Translations under genes and position numbers: made by a program
Notes under the pieces: generated by a model
Database searches by the model: none
Told to the model about the DNA's origin: nothing
The model's input: only the letters and a program-made list of their open reading frames with translations
Source of the DNA: Chloroflexota bacterium
GTDB taxonomy: Bacteria > Chloroflexota > Anaerolineae > Anaerolineales > Anaerolineaceae
DNA: 64,000 nucleotides
Direction: 5' to 3'
Assembly (NCBI GenBank): GCA_009773005.1
Contig: WOUT01000012.1
Span: 1-64,000, forward strand
Shown here: positions 15,660 to 58,711 of the stretch, piece after piece
Position numbering within the stretch: the stretch's first letter is position 1
Layout of the letters: every line of letters begins with the position of its first letter

Positions 15660-16295
15660 ATGTATTTTGCCATCGAAGGTGTCATCGGGGTGGGAAAAAC
15701 CACTCTTGCCAGATTATTACAACCTTCTTTTAAAGCCGAGTTGGTGCTCGAAGTCTTTGAAGAAAACCCGTTCTTAAGCAATTTTTATTCAGACCGCGCC
15801 CGCTATGCCTTTCAGACGCAGATATTCTTTTTGCTCAGCCGCTACCACCAACAGCGCCGCAACATCAACGAACGCCTTGAGAAGGCGCAAGCAGTGATCA
15901 GCGATTACACTTTCGAAAAAGACGCCCTCTTCGCGCGCATCAACCTGGCGGGTGACGAACTGGATATGTATTACAACGTGCAGGAAGCGCTGGCTGAAAA
16001 AGTGACGCCCCCCAACCTGGTCGTTTACTTGCGCGCCACCACAGAGACGCTAATGCGCCGTATCGCGCAACGCGACCGCCCTTACGAACGCTCGATGGAA
16101 CGCGATTACATCGACCTGCTTAACCAATCCTATGACGATTATTATCAGGATTCCTCTCACAATTCACAGGTACTGATCATCGAATCCGATGGATTTGATT
16201 TTGTCGGGCGAACGGAAGATTTGGAACTGATTAAATCTCAAATTCATGACGCGCTGCAGACGGCTCCCTTCCAACCGCTGCTGCCGATCGCCTAG
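15660..16295 (+). CDS. Deoxynucleoside kinase
   Basis: 211 aa; MYFAIEGVIGVGKTTLARLL, EVFEENPFLSNFY, RIAQRDRPYER. Confidence 0.94.
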   Translation: MYFAIEGVIGVGKTTLARLLQPSFKAELVLEVFEENPFLSNFYSDRARYAFQTQIFFLLSRYHQQRRNINERLEKAQAVISDYTFEKDALFARINLAGDELDMYYNVQEALAEKVTPPNLVVYLRATTETLMRRIAQRDRPYERSMERDYIDLLNQSYDDYYQDSSHNSQVLIIESDGFDFVGRTEDLELIKSQIHDALQTAPFQPLLPIA

Positions 16296-16308
16296 CCTTA
16301 GGAGAGCC

Positions 16309-17301
16309 ATGCGCATTACGCGTGAATTGCTGATCAATCTCGCCCACGAAAACGCCGCCAAGATGTCCGCCAAAGAGCGCGGTCTGGTGTGTGTTTATTT
16401 GACCGGCTCGCTATTAAAGGCGGAACCCTTCCTCGGCGGCGTGACGGATATAGACGTCATCTGCGTGCATGACCGCCCGGTGACCACTGCGCGTGAGATC
16501 ATCCGCATCAACGCGGATGTTCATCTCGACTTGGCGCACTACACCCAGGATGATTTTTTACCAGCCCGCAAGCTTCGCACGGATGCATGGATCGGCGGCG
16601 CCCTGGAAAATGATCCCCTCATCCTGCAAGATTCAGCCCACTGGTTCGATCTGACACGTTCAAACGCCACCTCGCAGTTCTGGCAGCCTGCGAATGTCGC
16701 GGCACGCGCCGGGTCTTTCATCACTTTTGCCCGCCAAAATTGGTTAGCGCTCCAGGATGGCTCCCTGCCGCAGGGTATTAAACGCATTCAGGCGCTGCTG
16801 GATGTCATCCGTGACACCGCCAACGCAGCGGCAGCGCTTAACGGCATGCCTTTGCCCATTCGCCGTTTGTTCCTAGAATTGCCCGAACGTGCCGCAAAAG
16901 CCGGAATACCTGAACTTGCCGGAGAACTTGTGCAGATCTTCACCAGCGACGAAGTGACGGATGAACATTGGAGTCCTTGGCTGGCAGGTTGGATGTCGGC
17001 ATTTGACGCTCTGAAAACCGAAAAAGACGCCCCGGCTGCCATCCACCCGAACCGACGCAACTACTATGAAAAAGCGGTTGAAGCCCTGACCGCGGATCGC
17101 CCCGCCGCTGCGCTGTGGATCATTTTACGTACCTGGACCAAAGCTTCCGCGGCGCTGCCAAAATCTGGAACACCTTATAAGGAATGGCAGAATATGTGCC
17201 ACCAGTTGAATCTGGAAGCAAAAAACCTGCCCCAGCGTTTGGATGCCCTGGATGCCGCACTCGATCTGGTGGAAGAAGTCGTCGACGCAATGCGGAGTTG
17301 A
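16309..17301 (+). CDS. Nucleotidyltransferase-domain protein
   Basis: VYLTGSLLKAEPFLGGVTDIDVICVHD resembles the GS-X10-DID Pol-beta NTase motif; ATG at 16309 after GGAGAG. Confidence 0.75.
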   Translation: MRITRELLINLAHENAAKMSAKERGLVCVYLTGSLLKAEPFLGGVTDIDVICVHDRPVTTAREIIRINADVHLDLAHYTQDDFLPARKLRTDAWIGGALENDPLILQDSAHWFDLTRSNATSQFWQPANVAARAGSFITFARQNWLALQDGSLPQGIKRIQALLDVIRDTANAAAALNGMPLPIRRLFLELPERAAKAGIPELAGELVQIFTSDEVTDEHWSPWLAGWMSAFDALKTEKDAPAAIHPNRRNYYEKAVEALTADRPAAALWIILRTWTKASAALPKSGTPYKEWQNMCHQLNLEAKNLPQRLDALDAALDLVEEVVDAMRS

Positions 17302-17316
17302 GCTCCGAATAGCTTT

Positions 17317-17668
17317 TTATGCACATATTGTATAAAAACTGTGGATAACTCACTATTTTCTGTTGATAAAAGTAACAAAATGTGAAGAACTTTGGTTAAT
17401 TAAACGAGAGTCTCTGTGGAGAAATCTAAAAATTATCCACTAGAAAAAATGTGTTTTGGAGGGAATTATGAAAATTCAACAATTATACCCATTCCATACA
17501 CATTGATTTTGTAGAAAATATTGCGGTTAAAACACCAGATATGGGGGAGTGAATATAAATGACCCCTAAATACACGCAAGGAAAATCAAAAATCCATGTT
17601 TATCCACTTATCCACAGTCCCTATTACGATTACTATATTAATTAATTCTAATAATAATAAGATGTATA
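17317..17668. promoter_or_regulatory. Candidate replication origin (DnaA-box cluster plus AT-rich tract)
   Basis: TTATGCACA 17317-17325; TGTGGATAA 17340-17348; TTATCCACT 17433-17441; TTATCCACT 17600-17608; TTATCCACA 17608-17616; AT-rich tract ATTACTATATTAATTAATTCTAATAATAATAAGATGTATATA about 17627-17668. Confidence 0.55.
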
Positions 17669-17784
17669 TACAACCTCAAGTTCATGCTTGAAACTGCCTG
17701 ATATTTCTTGTACAATTTGTATAGTTTAGGAAAATTGCCCCCATGGCTTTATAGATCAAGCGTTGATCCAGAAGGGAGTGGAAA

Positions 17785-18048
17785 ATGGATGTCATCAAAG
17801 TCAAAGCCAATTCTCGCACAGCTGCTGTCGCGGGGGCCATTGCGGGAGTTATGCGTGAACACAAACACGCAGATGTTCAGGCGATCGGCGCAGGTGCGGT
17901 TAACCAGGCGGTCAAGGCGCTCATATTGGCAAAAGGGTATCTTGAGGAAGACGGAATAAAGATCATGTGCCTCCCTGAATTTGTCGATGTTGATATTGAT
18001 GGAAAGGTGCGCACGGCAATCAAGCTCGTGGTTGATCCATTGCCCTAA
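17785..18048 (+). CDS. spoVS: Stage V sporulation protein S-like
   Basis: 87 aa; MDVIKVKANSRTAAVAGAIAGVMREHKHADVQAIGAGAVNQAVKAL. Confidence 0.96.
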   Translation: MDVIKVKANSRTAAVAGAIAGVMREHKHADVQAIGAGAVNQAVKALILAKGYLEEDGIKIMCLPEFVDVDIDGKVRTAIKLVVDPLP

Positions 18049-18106: not shown

Positions 18107-18763
18107 TCAGGTGCGTTCTGCTTCTTCGCGGGTGAAGACGACTTCGTCTTTACCGGTTAGTTTTTCTTGCACCTTGTTGATGATCAATTCCAGATGGCGA
18201 GAATGGGCTACATAATCCAGCGCATCAGCCGGGACGGTGAGTACCGGACACAGGGTGAAATGCTCAATCCAGTTTTCGTATATGTCGTTTAGTCTGGAGA
18301 GGTATTCCGGGGCGATCTGCCTCTCATAATCGCGGTTGCGCAGCGCGATACGCTTCAGCAAGGTTGGCACAGAAGCGCGCAAATAGATCACCAAATCAGG
18401 CGGGGGCAGATAATCAGCCAGGGTGCGGTAGAGCGAGCGGTAGGTGGTGTAATCGCGTTCGCTCATTTTATCCTGCGCAAACAAGTTGTGAGCGAAAACT
18501 TCAGCATCTTCATAGATACTGCGATCCTGGATGACTGAACCGGTAGTGCGCACCAGATCCTGATGAATGCGCAGCCGATGTGTTAAAAAGAAAATCTGCG
18601 AATGAAAACTCCAGGAGAGCATGTCTTTGTAAAAATCAGAGATGTACGGGTTTTCGGTGACCGGTTCGTAGAAAGGCTGGCAGTCAAGCCTTTCACAGAT
18701 CATCTCGACCAGCGTGGATTTGCCGACCCCGATGTTTCCCGCGACAGCGATAAATTTCTTCAT
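18107..18763 (-). CDS. Deoxynucleoside kinase
   Basis: 218 aa; MKKFIAVAGNIGVGKSTLVEMI, FYEPVTENPYISDFYKDM, ALRNRDYERQI. Confidence 0.95.
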   Translation of the reverse strand: MKKFIAVAGNIGVGKSTLVEMICERLDCQPFYEPVTENPYISDFYKDMLSWSFHSQIFFLTHRLRIHQDLVRTTGSVIQDRSIYEDAEVFAHNLFAQDKMSERDYTTYRSLYRTLADYLPPPDLVIYLRASVPTLLKRIALRNRDYERQIAPEYLSRLNDIYENWIEHFTLCPVLTVPADALDYVAHSRHLELIINKVQEKLTGKDEVVFTREEAERT

Positions 18764-52090: not shown

Positions 52091-52297
52091 ATGTCTGATC
52101 TAACCATACTAACAAAATATTTACCGCTTTTGATACCCATAGCGCTATTGCAATTTGGATTATTAGTTGCAGCCTTGGTCGATTTGATGAAGCGCGAGAA
52201 TACGAAGGGGCTCCCTAAATGGGGTTGGATATTGGTGATCGTCTTTGTGAACCTGTTTGGCCCCATCATTTATTTCATATTTGGGAGAGATGAATGA
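52091..52297 (+). CDS. PLDc_N-domain small membrane protein
   Basis: 68 aa; LVAALVDLMKRENTKGLPKWGWILVIVFVNLFGPIIYFIFGRDE. Confidence 0.92.
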   Translation: MSDLTILTKYLPLLIPIALLQFGLLVAALVDLMKRENTKGLPKWGWILVIVFVNLFGPIIYFIFGRDE

Positions 52298-53238
52298 ACG
52301 CAATAAAAATTGAAGGGTTGGTAAAGACATACGGCAGCGTCCGCGCCCTGGATGGTCTCAACCTGGAGGTCCGATCAGGCTCAGTGTTTGGATTCCTGGG
52401 ACCAAATGGTGCAGGAAAAACAACTACACTGCGCATTCTGGCGGGGCTGGCGCTGCCAAATGCCGGAAACGCAAGCGTCTCAGGGATTGCGCTATCGAAC
52501 ACAACACCGGCGCCATACGCCAGGACAGGGTATCTTCCTGAAGAACCCGCATTCTATCCCTGGATGACGCCGCGAGAATATCTTGATTATGTCGGGCGTA
52601 TTTTCAAAATTGGTTCGAAAGAACGCAGCGCCAGAGTTGATGAACTGCTGGATGTAGTCGGCTTGAAAGAAGTTTCAAAGCGCCACATTGGCGGTTTCTC
52701 ACGCGGGATGCGGCAGCGCCTGGGGATTGCGCAAGCATTGGTCAATCATCCAGAAGTTCTACTGCTGGATGAACCTGTAAGCGCTTTGGATCCCGCTGGC
52801 CGCAAGGAAGTGCTGGAGTTGATCGAAGAACTTGGAAAGGAATGTACCGTATTGATGTCGAGCCACATACTTGCTGATGTTGAACGAGTCTGCGACACCG
52901 TTGGCATCATCAATAAAGGAAAACTGATCACGCAAGCCATAAAAGCGGAATTAATGGAAAAATATGCAATCCCGGCCCTGGAACTGGTGGCAGGAAATGG
53001 CATGGCTCAACAGATTTCTGAATGGAAAGAGCGAATTGAGCGCATGACCAGCGTATCAGGCGTCTCGATTGAGGGGTACACTTTTCGTATTGCTGTAAAA
53101 GATGTTCACAGCGCGCAGCGCGAGCTCATGCAGGATGCCATCAGACAGAACGCTCACTTTGAACGTCTTGAGATTGTTAAGCCCTCATTGGAAGACATTT
53201 TCATGCAATTGGTAAATGGGGTGGAGGAGAAAAAATGA
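52294..53238 (+). CDS. ABC transporter ATP-binding protein
   Basis: 314 aa; GPNGAGKTTTLRIL, FSRGMRQRLGIAQALVNHPEVLLLDEPVSALDP; overlaps preceding stop by 4 nt. Confidence 0.97.
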   Translation: MNAIKIEGLVKTYGSVRALDGLNLEVRSGSVFGFLGPNGAGKTTTLRILAGLALPNAGNASVSGIALSNTTPAPYARTGYLPEEPAFYPWMTPREYLDYVGRIFKIGSKERSARVDELLDVVGLKEVSKRHIGGFSRGMRQRLGIAQALVNHPEVLLLDEPVSALDPAGRKEVLELIEELGKECTVLMSSHILADVERVCDTVGIINKGKLITQAIKAELMEKYAIPALELVAGNGMAQQISEWKERIERMTSVSGVSIEGYTFRIAVKDVHSAQRELMQDAIRQNAHFERLEIVKPSLEDIFMQLVNGVEEKK

Positions 53239-53996: not shown

Positions 53997-54012
53997 TGTT
54001 TCACGTGAAACA
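53997..54012. promoter_or_regulatory. parS site (ParB-binding), copy 1
   Basis: TGTTTCACGTGAAACA, exact match to the canonical parS palindrome. Confidence 0.93.
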
Positions 54013-54028: not shown

Positions 54029-54044
54029 TGTTTCACGTGAAACA
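54029..54044. promoter_or_regulatory. parS site (ParB-binding), copy 2
   Basis: TGTTTCACGTGAAACA, second exact copy, 32 bp start-to-start. Confidence 0.93.
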
Positions 54045-57583: not shown

Positions 57584-58711
57584 CTAGCCGAGGTGCATTG
57601 GCATGATGACGTGCGTGAAGTTGTCATCACCCACCGGGCGGATCACCCCCGGGGTATTGTTGGCGTTGGTCTCAAGCGCCACATTTGGAGAGCGAACCAC
57701 ATCCAAAACTTCGCGCAAGAAGCGAACGTTGAACGCGATCAGGAGTCCGCTTCCCTCAATATTGGCTTCTATTTGGATGTCGCTTTTACCTGTCTCTTCG
57801 GTGAGAGCGCTAATTTCCACCCGCCCAGCTCCGTTTTCCTCTGGAAGGATGTTGAGGCGGATGACGTTATTGCCTTCCCGGGCAATGATCTCGGCTTGTT
57901 TGCAGGCTTTCAGAAAAGCCGGGGTTGATACCGTGGTGCGAGTTTTGTGGTTTTGAGGGATGATGGCGCGAAAATCAGGGAAATTACCATCGATTAATTG
58001 TGACACCAACTCGGCGTCTTTTAAGTGGAAAATGACCTGTCCGCGGCCTTGAGGTACGACCATGGTGACAGCTTTGTCGCTGTCGGATGAAATGCGGGCA
58101 AGTTCATTCATGGCGCGGGCGGGGATGATGATGGAGAAGCTTTGTTTTATGGGGTTAGCAAGCAGCTCTTTGCGCACCGAAATGCGGAAACCGTCTGTAG
58201 CGGCGAGCGTGATCTGGTTTTCCTGCACTTCCATTTTGACCCCCTGCAAGACGGGGCGGGCTTCATCGGCAGAGGCGGCGAATGCCACCTGCTGGATCAT
58301 TTCTTTGAAATCGATCAAATTAAGGTCGACACCCTCGGTCAAGTCCGGCACCGGAATGGGTGGAAAATCCTGAGCATCAATGCCTTTAATATCGTGTACC
58401 GAGCTGTTGCACACCAGGTTGATGGTTTGGGTGCGTGTATCCAACGCTAATTGCACGTTTTCCGGAGGGAACGTACCAACAAGGTCAACCAGGGTGCGCG
58501 CCGGAACGGTGATGGAGCCTTCTTCCTGGATCTGTGCGGGAATCCAGCACGTGATGCCAAGCTCCAAATTTGTGGCAGACAGGCGAAGCCGGCCTTCATC
58601 GGTTGCCACCAGCACGTTCGCCAGCACAGGCAAAGTGCTGCGGGGAGAAACTGCACGGCTGACTACGCTTAATCCGTGTGCCAGATGTTGTTGCGTGACA
58701 GTGGCTTTCAT
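57584..58711 (-). CDS. dnaN: DNA polymerase III beta sliding clamp
   Basis: 375 aa; MKATVTQQHLAHGLSVVSRAVSPRSTLPVLANVLVATDEGRLRLSATNLELGI; ends THVIMPMHLG. Confidence 0.97.
   Translation of the reverse strand: MKATVTQQHLAHGLSVVSRAVSPRSTLPVLANVLVATDEGRLRLSATNLELGITCWIPAQIQEEGSITVPARTLVDLVGTFPPENVQLALDTRTQTINLVCNSSVHDIKGIDAQDFPPIPVPDLTEGVDLNLIDFKEMIQQVAFAASADEARPVLQGVKMEVQENQITLAATDGFRISVRKELLANPIKQSFSIIIPARAMNELARISSDSDKAVTMVVPQGRGQVIFHLKDAELVSQLIDGNFPDFRAIIPQNHKTRTTVSTPAFLKACKQAEIIAREGNNVIRLNILPEENGAGRVEISALTEETGKSDIQIEANIEGSGLLIAFNVRFLREVLDVVRSPNVALETNANNTPGVIRPVGDDNFTHVIMPMHLG

Follow-up and report, generated by a model that had tools for sequence, protein, structure and literature searches.

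The gap before spoVS of an uncultured Anaerolineaceae bacterium is very probably where chromosome copying starts

The replication origin oriC adjoins dnaA in many bacteria, and origins apart from dnaA occur, for example, in Caulobacter and the cyanobacteria. In Bacillus subtilis, DnaA bound to its boxes forms a filament on the DnaA-trios and opens the DNA (PMC8287927), and the consensus of these trios is 3'-GAT-5' (PMC8287927). A distal DnaA-box in incC of the same species acts with helical phasing, which has been interpreted as a DNA loop (PMC6669920). The published rule to screen for trio-containing unwinding elements (basal unwinding system, BUS) demands at least three consecutive 3'-NAN-5' trios no more than 16 bp away from a box. 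A literature search, which did not extend to DoriC, returned no paper on the oriC of Anaerolineae or Ktedonobacter, and none on CCATATATGG in a bacterial origin.

In the stretch of 64,000 nucleotides analysed here (the window), the gap 5' of spoVS can be assigned with high confidence as the chromosomal replication origin oriC of an uncultured Anaerolineaceae bacterium (Table 1). An initial annotation, made from the letters of this DNA, had placed a candidate origin at 17300-17700; this proposal is supported by an origin anatomy that occurs in a single copy, by conservation of the unwinding module in 250 of the 300 genomes examined in the order, and by the skew minima of relatives.

Table 1. 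Coordinates of the very probable origin, its elements and neighbouring genes in the window
Feature	Position	Strand	Remarks
oriC (very probable), non-coding interval	17302..17784		no gene between ORF 16246-17301 and spoVS; 483 bp
DnaA-box TTATGCACA	17317..17325	+	1 mismatch, relaxed consensus
Distal DnaA-box triplet, box 1, perfect TTATCCACA	17340..17348	-	21/20-bp triplet spacing kept in relatives
Distal triplet, box 2, TTATCAACA	17361..17369	-	1 mismatch
Distal triplet, box 3, degenerate TTCTTCACA	17381..17389	-	2 mismatches; in register, 20 bp past box 2
DnaA-box TTCTCCACA	17415..17423	-	1 mismatch; absent from the initial annotation
DnaA-box TTATCCACT	17433..17441	+	1 mismatch; several relatives (such as L116, L131 and L139) have a similar inverted pair
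Conserved origin element CCAGATATGGGG (order consensus CCATATATGGGG)	17535..17546	+	sole copy in the window, 65 bp before the module (-65)
BUS-type module, DnaA-box 1, TTATCCACT	17600..17608	+	1 mismatch
BUS-type module, DnaA-box 2, perfect TTATCCACA	17608..17616	+	8 bp after box 1
Spacer GTCC, 4 nt	17617..17620		from the alignment of relatives
Five DnaA-trio positions, top strand CTA TTA CGA TTA CTA	17621..17635	-	register kept in relatives
AT-rich stretch, predicted DUE, where unwinding would begin	17629..17660		86% AT over 50 bp
Deoxynucleoside kinase (dNK) gene, stable left neighbour	15660..16295	+	PF01712; beside the origin in relatives too
NTase-like gene, stable left neighbour	16246..17301	+	beside the origin in relatives
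spoVS, common right neighbour	17785..18048	+	PF04232, 8e-35
Second deoxynucleoside kinase gene	18107..18763	-	PF01712
parS, perfect TGTTTCACGTGAAACA	53997..54012	+	sequence match
parS, perfect TGTTTCACGTGAAACA	54029..54044	+	sequence match; 16 bp between the two sites
dnaN	57584..58711	-	TIGR00663, above cut-off

The gap contains the sole dense cluster of DnaA-boxes in the window: seven boxes with at most one mismatch lie within 300 bp, where the density in the remaining DNA of the window predicts 0.10 (Poisson P ~2e-11). All boxes that had been annotated, i.e. those at 17317, 17340 and 17608 and the one-mismatch boxes at 17361, 17433 and 17600, could be retrieved at these positions. Perfect boxes occur in the 64 kb only at 17340 and 17608, and matches to TTATNCACA only at these two positions and at 17317; the count of three such matches is not significant by itself, as it was reached in 19 of 100 shuffles. 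The AT content of the gap (70%) is the highest of any 400 bp in the window, and the 50 bp from 17621 form one of its two most AT-rich stretches of that length. The properties of a DnaA-dependent oriC that could be recognized are a DnaA-box cluster in a non-coding region, an AT-rich region adjoining the boxes, which is the predicted unwinding region, and presence as a single copy per chromosome, since a profile of the unwinding module (R1, built from 28 relatives and the window) matches the draft genome (2.86 Mb in 105 contigs, 97.5% complete) exactly once, with an E-value of 4.2e-10.

The module itself reads TTATCCACTTATCCACA GTCC CTA TTA CGA TTA CTA, so that the trios of the bottom strand are 3'-GAT AAT GCT AAT GAT-5', with a central A in four of the five. 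The overlapping array that had been annotated at 17600/17608 corresponds to the box pair of this module, and the adjacent AT-rich tract, previously suggested as unwinding element, begins at 17629, overlaps the trio positions and is the predicted DUE. Because a strict regular expression failed to recognize the unwinding module in many relatives, a profile was used instead; when trained without the window, it gives the module at 17600 a score of 46.9 bits, compared to 2.2 for the next best site in the 64 kb. The boxes at 17600 and 17608 are tandem boxes close to trios, as in BUS elements, and the upstream one lies 12 bp from the trios, within the reported peak of 10-13 bp (PMC8287927). The run of trios demanded by the published rule is interrupted in the window by the third trio, GCT. 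Such runs are present in 61 of 116 orthologous origins and also follow 56 of 206 background box-like words of the window, and for this reason the rule discriminates only weakly. As the window falls outside a rule of little discriminating power, we refer to a BUS-type module rather than to a strict BUS.

Alignment of relatives revealed a common layout, in which a leftward triplet of boxes spaced by 21 and 20 bp is followed, about 225-285 bp further on (middle box to module), by the unwinding module. The latter typically consists of TTATCCACA and another box shifted by 8 bp, a spacer of four bases that are mostly G or C, the trios CTA CTA NNA CTA CTA (3'-GAT GAT NNT GAT GAT-5' on the other strand) and AT-rich DNA. 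Nearly all genomes of the order with a match to the module profile have it once, about eight having further copies, and across the phylum 57 of 301 genomes are matched. A same-direction box pair at a spacing of about 21 bp was found in 116 of the 147 genomes of the family, compared to only seven matches for a reversed control pattern in all listed genomes together. Of the 74 named loci that reach 1 kb or more upstream of spoVS, 40 have at least three boxes within this first 1 kb; the box density there is 2.8 per kb, compared to 0.084 per kb in the remainder of these loci. Within the family, genera g10 and g9 and some of the g27 genomes gave no module with this profile. The module-less genomes include six of g10, G036 and several of g27; spoVS was also not detected in most of them, including the single-contig genome G038, and their origins may have changed.

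The identity of spoVS next to the gap was confirmed (Table 1); the ORF on the other side, annotated earlier as NTase, has no match in Pfam or NCBIfam. In similarity searches with SpoVS, the organism fell within the Anaerolineaceae. Two paralogous dNK genes on opposite strands flank the origin region, an arrangement that recurs in relatives. In most of the checked genomes in which spoVS has been relocated, the triplet and module still adjoin homologues of the dNK and NTase-like genes, as in G027, where spoVS is 226 kb away and the origin and its left neighbours lie together at the skew switch.

GC skew at the orthologous sites was sampled by stretches in relatives. On the 2.72-Mb contig of G027, the sampled skew is negative from 900 to 1970 kb and positive from 2250 kb onwards, past the contig end and up to 620 kb; in a finely read region of 260 kb, the cumulative minimum is at 2,121,780, only 886 bp from the triplet at 2,120,894. 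Since spoVS (2,347 kb) and dnaA (2,440 kb) of this genome are far from the minimum, the skew follows the box unit and not those genes. In G137, of the same genus, the minimum (62,974) and the triplet (62,511) are within 0.5 kb of each other. In the closed genome G108, with dnaA at base 431, the cumulative minimum falls in the 315-335 kb sample and the module is at 326,892, and in the closed genome G227, from another family, the sign changes at 540-560 kb, with a local minimum at 542.9 kb, 13 kb from the module at 555,872. The agreement is looser in G066 and G135, where 50 kb and 11 kb, respectively, separate the local minimum from the module. In the 67-kb contig that contains the window, no clear minimum is seen at 17.3 kb; the skew is about zero on the left flank and for the most part positive on the right, and its minimum for the contig lies at 2 kb.

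The spacing between the triplet and the module was found to follow a period of about 11 bp (R 0.55, n=88 dissimilar origins with a triplet, reached in 0 of 2000 controls). In addition, a 12-bp palindromic element, CCATATATGGGG, was identified after masking of the boxes, the first motif run having yielded a mixture with DnaA-boxes. This element scores above 11 bits in 66 of 95 origins versus 0.4 in shuffles, and its density is 3.5 per kb per strand in the origins versus 0.09 in other DNA of the relatives. Copies near the module are positioned at -24, -34, -55 and -64 (R 0.88), and copies near the triplet at 57, 68 and 78 bp relative to the middle box (R 0.94), in both cases with no control as high. 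The origins in these phasing analyses come from related organisms and are therefore not independent, near-duplicates having been removed by k-mer similarity only. To our knowledge, no studied origin has a phased extra element of this kind. SpoVS, a protein of the Alba superfamily (PMC11621453), was considered as the necessary binder of the element and rejected: CCATATATGGGG is kept in nine of 14 origins of genomes in which spoVS was not detected, versus 11 of 12 with spoVS, so that SpoVS does not appear to be required, draft genomes making this comparison imperfect.

Several other interpretations of the cluster can be envisaged. Its position directly upstream of spoVS would suit a DnaA-controlled spoVS promoter, or DnaA titration at a site comparable to datA or DARS, as would the occurrence, elsewhere in several relatives, of box pairs or triplets without a module, some of them near an ABC-ATPase gene. 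We consider this very improbable, as the unit remains intact where spoVS is not adjacent and is located at the skew switch in relatives, and as trios beside an AT-rich stretch are present here and missing from the non-origin clusters. Sites of the datA/DARS type have boxes without an unwinding element and lie off the skew switch; here, the module is present and the orthologues are at the switch. Given that no other 400 bp of the window are as rich in AT, and that the count of TTATNCACA matches is not significant, AT-rich words might be suspected to have clustered by chance in a long gap between genes. This is the least credible explanation, given the improbability of the clustering (see above), and is already refuted by the conservation seen in sequence comparison, as the boxes, their spacing and the trio register are kept across the order.

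A true origin near dnaA, with the cluster at 17.3-17.7 kb as an accessory, would be in line with the adjacency of dnaA and oriC in many bacteria. The window lacks dnaA, as had been noted, and the gene was located on another contig (C28:7047-8390); its product has the stretch GGRDHTTV in the C-terminal domain, which is typical of box-binding DnaA. The 20 kb around this gene contain no perfect DnaA-box and no unwinding module (best score 4.7), and the denser box cluster beside dnaA, which the initial annotation had named as one of the observations that would speak against its proposal, was looked for and not found. Moreover, in G027, G066 and G108 a distance of about 320-330 kb separates dnaA from the module, and the skew switches at the module or close to it; we therefore regard an origin near dnaA as highly improbable, even more so than a promoter or titration site. 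Among the matches listed for the draft genome, just one further pair of closely spaced perfect boxes was present, on contig C17; it was discarded, as it lies in an integrase-like coding region. Both parS at 54.0 kb and dnaN at 57.6 kb proved to be correctly annotated, at distances of about 36 and 40 kb from the origin, respectively; in G066 and G027, dnaN is about 12 kb away.

Module-less box pairs, which are possible DnaA titration or regulatory sites, were encountered elsewhere in several relatives (six loci), in five genomes, including G027, at some 20-30 kb from the origin. Several of them are near an ABC-ATPase gene that resembles positions 52294-53238 of the window.

For the origin in the gap before spoVS, we propose the following mechanism, based on the arrangement of its sequence elements. 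DnaA would bind the tandem boxes at 17600-17616, from which a DnaA filament would extend onto the bottom-strand trios at 17621-17635 and melt the AT-rich stretch to the right, leading to helicase loading. The distal triplet (17340-17389) points the opposite way and is helically phased with the module, which it most likely assists via a DNA loop. The CCATATATGGGG element at 17535-17546, helically locked to the module and in many relatives also to the triplet, is probably the binding site of another protein, which would bend or bridge this loop. The conserved phasing of triplet and module suggests a loop as in B. subtilis, perhaps with a second protein on CCATATATGGGG. More generally, origins of the Anaerolineales may consist of two arms, each with a DnaA array and CCATATATGGGG on a fixed face of the helix, with an order-specific putative protein that bridges or bends the loop, bringing the triplet to the module, and that would be a new orisome component or initiation regulator; to this model we assign even chances.

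As an origin, the locus is of a known kind; new are the additional phased element and the order-wide position remote from dnaA. With this locus, the replication origin is placed in a large order of the Chloroflexota whose members are mostly uncultured, and for which a correct origin is needed in growth-rate estimates from read depth and in genome orientation. A genome started at dnaA would be about 330 kb off the origin, as in the closed record of G108, which begins at dnaA, about 327 kb from the module and the origin indicated by skew. The natural set of about 100 diverged origins makes the unwinding module and the helical phasing of the distal array directly readable; the phasing data are independent support for the looping model of B. 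subtilis, and the set has exposed a conserved origin element, CCATATATGGGG, without a known binding protein.

A different architecture was observed in another family of the phylum, f38, which to judge from genome size only (mostly 5-13 Mb) probably belongs to the Ktedonobacteria. There, a short AT-rich stretch lies between two BUS-type modules that face each other, and one side of this mirror-symmetric origin has many additional DnaA-boxes (five loci, e.g. L308, 1501-1600, and partly in three more). No DnaA or DnaN homologue was found in the f38 loci of roughly 3 kb. The module sequence is very similar to that of the window, which has one module instead of two facing ones. As in Caulobacter and the cyanobacteria, oriC is recognized here by its box cluster and skew and not by dnaA; unlike those origins, it has a conserved neighbourhood of dNK, NTase-like and spoVS genes in an order of the Chloroflexota. 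The closest resemblance in anatomy is with oriC (incC) and the BUS of B. subtilis, with which it shares tandem boxes, a short spacer, the trio register and a phased distal box part (PMC6669920, PMC8287927). It differs from B. subtilis oriC in being located away from dnaA, in having a triplet of boxes at 21/20-bp spacing as its distal part and one degenerate trio, and in the presence of the extra phased element CCATATATGGGG.
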